A stretch of 64,000 bases of DNA. Origin: Streptomyces sp. NBC_01267. Lineage in GTDB: Bacteria > Actinomycetota > Actinomycetes > Streptomycetales > Streptomycetaceae. Below, piece by piece: positions 28,900 through 28,986 of this stretch (within the stretch, counting starts at the first letter, position 1; every line of letters begins with the position of its first letter). Position numbers and translations under genes: made by a program. The stretch covers positions 1 through 64,000 of the forward strand of contig NZ_CP108456.1 of the NCBI RefSeq assembly GCF_036241575.1. The letters run 5' to 3'. The notes beneath the pieces were generated by a model that saw only the letters and a program-made list of their open reading frames with translations, searched no databases and was not told the DNA's origin.

Positions 28900-28986
28900 G
28901 GAGAGGTGCCCGGAGTGGTTTATCGGGGACCGGAGCACGCTTCAGTCGGGCGAAAGCCCACGCAGGTTCGAATCCTGCCCTCTCCG
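28900..28986 (+). tRNA. tRNA-Ser-like gene with a non-canonical anticodon arm, copy 1
   Basis: 87 nt. Acceptor stem GGAGAGG (28900-28906) pairs perfectly with 28979-28985, followed by discriminator G. D arm: CCCG (28909-28912) with CGGG (28924-28927), loop containing GTGG. Variable arm: GGGC-GAAA-GCCC (28948-28959). T arm: GCAGG-TTCGAAT-CCTGC (28962-28978). The long variable arm plus G73 marks a serine acceptor. The 20-nt segment between D and variable arms (28928-28947) cannot form the usual 5-bp stem with 7-nt loop there. It instead folds as an 8-position stem (one C-A mismatch, one G-T) with a CACG loop. Another fold, GCACG-CTTCAGT-CGGGC with one mismatch and a possible UCA anticodon, breaks the variable arm. 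CCA is not encoded. No terminator follows, so it appears to be the first gene of the biosynthetic operon. Confidence 0.75.

Follow-up and report, generated by a model that had tools for sequence, protein, structure and literature searches.

An anticodon-less serine-tRNA-like RNA in valanimycin-type gene clusters of Streptomyces and its probable role as a dedicated seryl carrier

The window analysed here is a stretch of 64,000 nucleotides from Streptomyces sp. NBC_01267. Genes of the VlmA, VlmJ, VlmK, VlmB, seryl-tRNA synthetase (SerRS), and SARP types lie together in it, and the locus is therefore a valanimycin-type cluster, with the VlmB assignment taken from the annotation of a near-identical plasmid (Table 1). 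In the valanimycin pathway, as outlined in parts of two reviews, the SerRS VlmL supplies Ser-tRNA to VlmA (PMC4052509, PMC12945691). The two systems share VlmA-, VlmJ-, VlmK-, VlmB-, and VlmL-type genes and seryl-tRNA as the serine donor, and valanimycin production is likewise described as under SARP control, in that case by VlmI. They differ in that the donor named in those parts of the reviews is tRNA-Ser, and no RNA gene of the pathway is named there (PMC4052509, PMC12945691). In the window, a small RNA gene (copy 1) is located between the divergent vlmA and vlmJ genes.

Table 1. Features of the window (positions are those of the 64,000-nucleotide stretch)
Feature	Position	Strand	Remarks
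Serine-tRNA-like RNA without anticodon, copy 1	28900..28986	+	87 nt up to G73, without an encoded CCA
Acceptor stem, 7 bp	28900-28906/28979-28985	+	copy 1
D arm	28909-28927	+	copy 1; 4-bp D stem, 11-nt loop
Hairpin in place of anticodon arm, 20-nt insert	28928..28947	+	loop CACG at 28936-28939; based on covariation and loop lengths
Long variable arm, 4 bp, GAAA loop	28948..28959	+	copy 1; helix paired in 98.7% of cells (76 distinct rows)
T arm	28962..28978	+	copy 1; 5-bp stem, TTCGAAT loop, A51-U63 (G51-C63 in the four host tRNA-Ser)
G73 (discriminator)	28986	+	copy 1
RNA copy 2	59589..59675	+	ARAGORN and genome search; adjoining genes encode GNAT and TPR proteins, not of the pathway
SARP-type operator with three TCAG units, period 11 nt	28819..28847	+	5' of copy 1
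Triple operator, same kind	59493..59521	+	5' of copy 2
Operator pair TCAG-N7-TCAG	27343..27357	-	5' of desaturase gene 25983-27146
Triple operator	21390..21415	-	just 5' of ORF 20129-21388 (P450 by annotation of near-identical plasmid)
Operator pair	31556..31570	+	5' of aldehyde dehydrogenase gene 31637-33238
Flavin reductase, VlmR candidate	23251..23778	-	
VlmA-type seryl-tRNA-dependent transferase (LPG_synthase_C)	27731..28729	-	divergent from copy 1
VlmJ-type kinase (DAGK/YegS)	29128..30120	+	
VlmK-type MmgE/PrpD protein	30071..31540	+	ORF as listed; true start may be later
Acyl-CoA-dehydrogenase-like protein	33280..34419	+	VlmH candidate, by position
Small protein without Pfam match, VlmO candidate	36259..36813	+	position and size only
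VlmB-like diiron protein candidate	36874..37872	+	AurF below Pfam cut-off; 'VlmB-like protein' in near-identical plasmid
Seryl-tRNA synthetase of the cluster, VlmL-type (SerRS2)	39199..40473	+	serS equivalog above cut-off
SARP regulator (Trans_reg_C + BTAD)	40543..41604	-	candidate activator of the RNA genes

Copy 1 has the parts that the initial annotation ascribed to it, namely a complete acceptor stem, D arm, variable arm with a GAAA loop, T arm, and G73. ARAGORN calls it tRNA-Ala(agc), with a meaningless anticodon, and no Rfam family, RF00005 (tRNA) included, matches anything in the window at its gathering threshold. The best sub-threshold Rfam match at copy 1 is tRNA-Sec (RF01852), at 25.6 bits against a cut-off of 47. 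A covariance model, R1, was built from 13 ungapped 87-nt copies of the RNA and scores family members at 60–109 bits and normal tRNAs at no more than 57 bits; copy 1, which is itself one of its source rows, reaches 102.5 bits, compared with 37.6–57 bits for the four normal tRNA-Ser of the host.

The genome of the strain (8.07 Mb, three contigs) contains four copies of the RNA, all on the 149-kb contig C2. Copies 1 and 2 have unrelated flanks, while their own sequences are identical at all but 2 of 87 positions, which are located in and next to the variable arm; two further copies stand in tandem just beyond the window (C2:69575 and 69674). Neither copy 2 nor this tandem pair figures in the initial annotation. 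The chromosome carries normal tRNA genes, including those for tRNA-Ser with gct, tga, cga, and gga anticodons. All 68 matches to RF00005 in the genome (E ≤ 0.001) are on contig C1, and none of the four C2 copies is among them.

The segment between the D and variable arms folds into a hairpin that is under selection. In copy 1 it reads GAC C GGAG-CACG-CTTC A GTC, which is the arm of the RNA family. Among 88 matches (76 distinct), all eight pairs of this arm have changes on both sides, and 89.5–93.1% of cells are paired. Over the whole structure, the 76 distinct sequences have 144 cells with double changes; shuffles give 34 and slid controls no more than 18. Double changes are found in 14 pairs (8.4 in shuffles), and covariation is 0.214 (0.089 in shuffles); none of 500 shuffles attained these values. 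Because it was fitted to the model, this 88-match alignment is biased towards the structure, a bias from which the ungapped 13-row alignment is free. There, four of the eight arm pairs show double-sided changes and covariation reaches 0.215 as against 0.100 (0 of 500 shuffles as high), with two of five measures failing to beat the shuffles: pairs with double changes (5 versus 3.6 shuffled; 80 of 500 shuffles as high) and further pair types (12 versus 12.2). The hairpin of eight positions with a CACG loop that the initial annotation drew from one copy is thus real: three further near-identical copies exist in the genome, and double-sided changes extend to 8/8 arm pairs.

The loop of this hairpin is unlike an anticodon loop. 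When the arm and variable-arm segment is folded, the loops of 72 distinct copies are of 3 nt (14 copies), 4 nt (37), 5 nt (18), or 6 nt (3) and never of 7 nt, and their sequences vary freely (CACG, UUCG, UACG, GCAA, GCGA, UCAC, and others). The observation in the initial annotation that a normal arm of 5 bp and 7 nt is missing thereby holds across the family, and none of these 72 copies, so folded, has the arm of 5 bp and 7 nt with a serine anticodon that a decoding tRNA-Ser would have; a perfect arm of this kind is present in all four tRNA-Ser of the host. When the whole molecule is folded by minimum energy, 60 of 72 distinct copies form the acceptor, D, and T stems together with the arm hairpin. 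The remaining 12 miss this cloverleaf; they include copy 2 of the window, for which another fold is lower in energy. At 18 RNA-bearing family loci, ARAGORN assigns an anticodon in 13 (11 different ones), leaves it undefined in four, and reports no gene in one.

The rest of the molecule has the identity features of a serine tRNA. SerRS recognizes its substrates by the G1-C72 and G2-C71 pairs, G73, and the long variable arm, and the family has all of these. G-C pairs occupy positions 1 and 2 in 76/76 distinct rows, and G73 is present in 133 of 134 distinct family rows, the remaining one being cut by a contig end. The GG..CC acceptor end, G73, and long variable arm are the same as in the four tRNA-Ser of the host. 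In the 76 distinct rows, the 7-bp acceptor stem is 99.8% paired and the 5-bp T stem 100% paired. The first base after G73 is C in 84/84 copies, and CCA is encoded in only 16 of these 84.

The T stem differs from that of the host tRNA-Ser at one pair. In a script-based count that excludes a normal tRNA at locus L325 (4925-4995; 30.9 bits), A51-U63 is found in 129 of 134 distinct family RNAs, compared with G51-C63 in 4/4 host tRNA-Ser; the five exceptions are out of register in the script (three with an extra T-stem nucleotide, one cut by a contig end, and one with a damaged acceptor stem). Of the 42 normal tRNAs of the host that were scored, 5 likewise have A51-U63. In cell-wall tRNA-Gly of Staphylococcus aureus, according to the relevant part of a review, A49-U65 and A51-U63 replace pairs that bind EF-Tu strongly (PMC4052509). 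Position 49-65 is G-C in 127 of 134 distinct RNAs; hence only one of the two changes is present here, and A51-U63 hints at weak binding of the RNA by EF-Tu. The three copies with one extra T-stem nucleotide belong to Salinispora and Microbispora (L322 9698-9785; L334 9442-9529 and 9720-9807), where the insertion might further hinder EF-Tu binding.

The RNA genes are preceded by direct (G)TCAG repeats with an 11-nt period, followed in many cases by a GTGAACGG-type stretch. TCAG-N7-TCAG occurs within 140 nt upstream of 62 of 67 leading copies (those not preceded by another copy in tandem), and three repeats are present in 49; among 20,000 segments of 140 nt taken at random from these loci, the pair occurs in 0.785% and the triple in 0.335%. 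The five leading copies without a pair are in L132 (one-mismatch pairs only), L140, L141, L143, and L144. None of the 30 normal host tRNA genes checked has TCAG-N7-TCAG. The operator also precedes copies in Microbispora (2), Salinispora, Micromonospora, Kitasatospora (2), Actinacidiphila, and S. atratus, and copies that are unlinked to a vlm cluster carry the same operator. The repeats resemble the sites of the SARP PapR2, which are described as heptamers repeated at 4-bp spacing, with GTCAGSS as their consensus (PMC7040171).

Against an expectation of 1.62, the window contains 11 operator sites, a number that none of 100 shuffles attained. The two RNA copies account for four of these sites. 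Further sites stand 5' of the desaturase gene, of the aldehyde dehydrogenase gene, and of ORFs 18510-19991 and 20129-21388; one site is within an ORF, and another has no same-strand gene close after it. The SARP encoded at 40543-41604 would be the activator that acts on the RNA genes. Beside the desaturase site, and likewise 5' of that gene, there is a 26-nt inverted repeat (27164-27325) that is 92% complementary, with arms 110 nt apart.

The RNA is widespread in Streptomyces. blastn matched 64 of 392 genomes of the genus, and 51 carry the RNA: 42 with matches over positions 1-87 and nine with partial matches that are full-length by structure or by the covariance model. The other 13 have partial matches only and are not counted as carriers; G130, among these, is without VlmA. 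When 394 genomes drawn class-wide from 137 genera were searched, blastn found the RNA in four, all Streptomyces and including the strain itself, so that the RNA outside Streptomyces is either rare or missed by blastn. Loci fetched by VlmA reveal it also in Kitasatospora, Actinacidiphila, Micromonospora, Salinispora, and Microbispora, and a genome-wide search with the model adds Actinokineospora, giving six genera besides Streptomyces. Family members are 83–98 nt long; model matches of 187 and 191 nt in L262 and L287 are not inserts, the extra length being runs of N (assembly gaps).

Copy number is high in some genomes, reaching 15 in S. griseofuscus and in Kitasatospora sp. MBT63, 11 in K. mediocidica, nine in S. 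murinus, and eight in both S. diastatochromogenes and genome G388. Tandem copies about 124 nt apart are found in several genomes. In S. griseofuscus (G401, L323), 14 copies are on its contig C1, at most about 0.75 Mb from an end if this contig is the 8.72-Mb chromosome, and four are within about 33 kb of the two ends. Copies are also present on the S. collinus Tu 365 plasmid pSCO1 (NC_022001.1 57658-57753) and on S. lavendulae pSA3239 (NC_024970.2 156725-156813); no feature is listed at either place, the plasmid gene table used for the comparison containing no RNA genes. Multiplication of the genes would provide gene dosage for a high serine demand.

The distribution of the RNA follows that of VlmA. 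Relatives of VlmA (E ≤ 1e-45) are present in 80 of the 392 Streptomyces genomes, 49 of which have the RNA; conversely, 49 of the 51 RNA-positive genomes have VlmA at this threshold. The other two (G300 and G168) have a VlmA relative of 34–35% identity about 2.3 kb from the RNA. These two loci (L139 and L142) also contain VlmJ-type and aminotransferase genes, with a SARP checked in L139, and probably represent an uncharacterised related pathway. Where VlmA is at least 61% identical, 29/29 sampled genomes carry the RNA. In the 31 VlmA genomes without it, the model (E ≤ 1e-6), which scores only the best candidates of a first pass, gave only normal-tRNA scores, and positive controls were detected.

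A search of other vlmA clusters, as proposed in the initial annotation, gave the same picture. Among 80 named loci found by VlmA alone, partly from genomes that are also in the 392-genome sample, the RNA lies within the fetched stretch in 63. For the remaining 17, 16 genomes were searched as a whole and ten have it elsewhere, and L327 is counted as positive through an RNA-bearing contig of G373. In total, 74 of the 80 genomes have the RNA, the exceptions being those of L273, L289, L324, L328, L330, and L332. VlmA (57–69%) is also present in each of the three additional genomes to which the RNA alone led in the class-wide draw. In S. atratus (L337) the RNA lies 118 nt before vlmA; the elaiomycin gene ElaO of another S. 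atratus strain appears in a table of one review.

Presence of the RNA is structured by phylogeny. In a tree of 69 VlmA proteins, from which the ten most distant RNA-negative genomes and five RNA-positive ones were left out, the RNA label requires four changes, compared with 18.9 when shuffled. Of the 22 RNA-negative rows, 19 fall into one clade of 20; its lone RNA-positive row, L251 (G303), comes from a genome with a second VlmA in the RNA-positive clade. In the stretches read, the RNA-negative clade has neither SerRS2 nor VlmJ/VlmK. In a check of that clade, a methyltransferase family sought in L230 was absent among the seven proteins scanned, no link by name to azodyrecin emerged, and use of alanine as the reason for the absence of the RNA is a guess. 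Three genomes (G073, G086, and G337; loci L216, L217, and L220) group with the RNA-positive clade and yet lack the RNA. VlmJ and VlmK are present in two of the three, which are possibly natural losses and would be suitable strains for comparison. VlmA assays were done with Ser-tRNA-Ser, according to the part of a review that covers them (PMC12945691), and the RNA is therefore not obligatory. The RNA-negative clade and these few members of the positive clade likewise make the RNA an elaboration, rather than a requirement, of VlmA chemistry.

The RNA is also associated with the SerRS of the cluster. The genome encodes a second, chromosomal SerRS, taken as the housekeeping enzyme, which is 36% identical to that of the cluster. 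Relatives of SerRS2 that are 69–100% identical occur in 24 of 392 genomes, and the RNA is present in 24/24. At three loci (L191-L193) there is no RNA in the stretch around the SerRS and vlmA genes, and copies are found elsewhere in those genomes; the association is thus not mere linkage. The distinct SerRS2 relatives form one clade of 23 rows (SH-aLRT 99). SerRS2 is not a strict partner: 22 of the 51 RNA-positive genomes have no relative at E ≤ 1e-80, and in these, charging would fall to the housekeeping SerRS.

Enzymes that are 57–62% identical to the cluster SerRS occur in 35 of the 392 genomes, and 15 of this identity form a separate clade, group B (SH-aLRT 99). Group B was rejected as a partner: the 15 loci read (L174-L188) contain no vlm gene and no RNA, and the model matches in five of them have normal tRNA-Ser scores, one being tRNA-Ser by ARAGORN. 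Group-B enzymes may serve in resistance or replace the housekeeping enzyme. SerRS of 57–62% identity are found inside vlm loci in L130, L226, and L235.

The RNA is very probably a dedicated, non-decoding seryl carrier for VlmA that is co-regulated with the cluster. The seryl-donor reading of the initial annotation gains from the serine identity features, the co-occurrence with the cluster SerRS, the shared operator, and the T-stem pair suggestive of weak EF-Tu binding. Upon SARP induction, the RNA copies would be transcribed along with the cluster, and CCA would be added after transcription. SerRS2, or the housekeeping SerRS where SerRS2 is missing, would then charge the RNA via its acceptor stem, G73, and long variable arm. 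SerRS is not known to read the anticodon arm, and since the arm of the RNA is a closed hairpin, the charged molecule should be unable to decode; the weak T-stem pair may in addition lower its capture by EF-Tu. VlmA would transfer serine from the RNA to a hydroxylamine, yielding the O-seryl-hydroxylamine of azoxy biosynthesis. With the RNA genes multiplied and presumably switched on by a SARP together with the cluster, serine supply would scale with production and translation would not be drained. For charging, serine transfer, and exclusion from translation, this scheme follows by analogy the valanimycin chemistry summarized in the reviews.

It is unlikely that the RNA stays uncharged and acts as a regulator or decoy, imitating a tRNA under SARP control so as to bind and tune SerRS, VlmA, or some other protein that binds tRNA. 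Such a role would agree with the operators of SARP type and the large number of scattered copies, but the acceptor and T stems are the most invariant parts of the molecule and G73 is kept, which fits use of the 3' end, and the RNA tracks a serine transferase and a second SerRS. We also consider it improbable that the RNA donates serine mainly to some other enzyme, and not or not only to VlmA. This would accommodate the 27 of 60 fetched RNA loci with no vlm-type gene in the stretch (at most 10 kb on each side) and the presence of up to 15 copies per genome. However, the unlinked copies have no common neighbour, each of the 45 largest protein clusters occurring in at most 4 of 28 unlinked loci; the Streptomyces genomes that carry these copies hold VlmA elsewhere, and the operator is the same.

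That the RNA is a translating tRNA with an unusual anticodon, such as a UGA reader with a CTTCAGT loop, has very little to recommend it. The initial annotation kept this fold in mind, and a 7-nt UCA loop can indeed be drawn in the copies of the window; with U33 and a 5-bp stem of at most one mismatch, it is found in only 7 of 72 distinct RNAs, five of which are the window copies and their close kin, so that the loop is not conserved. Hairpins of 5 bp and 7 nt in general can be drawn from starts 25-34 in 16/72 without mismatch and in 43/72 with at most one, but when U33 is also demanded only 9/72 remain, in differing registers, and it is the arm hairpin that covaries, while the nominal ARAGORN anticodon changes between loci. 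Copies on plasmids or scattered in chromosome arms, and one copy with a damaged acceptor stem (L115 9815-9897), might suggest a tRNA-Ser pseudogene in decay or an attachment site that mobile DNA has spread. This reading is scarcely credible, as debris would not be expected to covary, to have intact stems in nearly all copies, to keep its operators, or to track VlmA.

A seryl carrier of this kind is distinct from the known tRNA-type RNAs that it resembles. tmRNA acts on the ribosome and carries the reading frame of a tag. The RNA shares with it a tRNA-like end without an anticodon that is charged (presumptively so for the RNA) but is only 83–98 nt long, and no tmRNA was reported in the window by ARAGORN, whose search covers this class as well. 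The non-proteinogenic tRNA-Gly of S. aureus keep an anticodon arm. As is proposed for the RNA, they are set aside for a non-ribosomal transferase and have weak EF-Tu pairs including A51-U63; in the passage that describes them, they are termed isoacceptors and loss of the anticodon arm is not mentioned (PMC4052509). The RNA, by contrast, has no anticodon arm, keeps the GG of the D loop, has G-C at 49-65, and is encoded by genes with an operator of secondary-metabolite type. tRNA-Sec, the closest Rfam family, is also charged by SerRS, as noted in part of one paper (PMC7609411); the RNA differs in having no anticodon loop, a 4-bp D stem, and a 7-bp acceptor stem, and it is rejected as tRNA-Sec by its sub-threshold score and the poor conservation of the UCA loop. 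Allo-tRNAs, in the same account, similarly place SerRS identity elements on an unusual cloverleaf, with an 8/4 or 9/3 acceptor domain and anticodons (PMC7609411), and the RNA, with a 7/5 acceptor domain and no anticodon, is not one of them.

tRNAs set aside for non-ribosomal use are thus already known (PMC4052509), as is, from tmRNA, that an anticodon-less tRNA-like end can be charged. In the open-licence literature searched, we found no description of a tRNA lineage that combines a replaced anticodon arm with the operator of a natural-product cluster; such a lineage appears to be new, although it may have been described elsewhere.

Taken together, a second SerRS, a multicopy anticodon-less derivative of tRNA-Ser tuned away from EF-Tu, a transferase, and a single SARP plausibly constitute a private aminoacyl-tRNA channel, a view that we favour with some reserve. 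If so, serine for translation and serine for biosynthesis would be held in separate RNA pools, and a natural tRNA lineage would have wholly abandoned decoding for metabolism. The RNA would offer a concrete answer to the question of the seryl donor for many related clusters and would demonstrate the conversion of a tRNA into a metabolic carrier through loss of its decoding function. In practical terms, ARAGORN labels the RNA as Ala, Arg, Val, Cys, and other tRNAs, and the tRNA counts of these genomes can therefore be wrong. The RNA can serve as a genome-mining marker for VlmA-type clusters and may prove useful as an aminoacyl carrier free of competition with protein synthesis.
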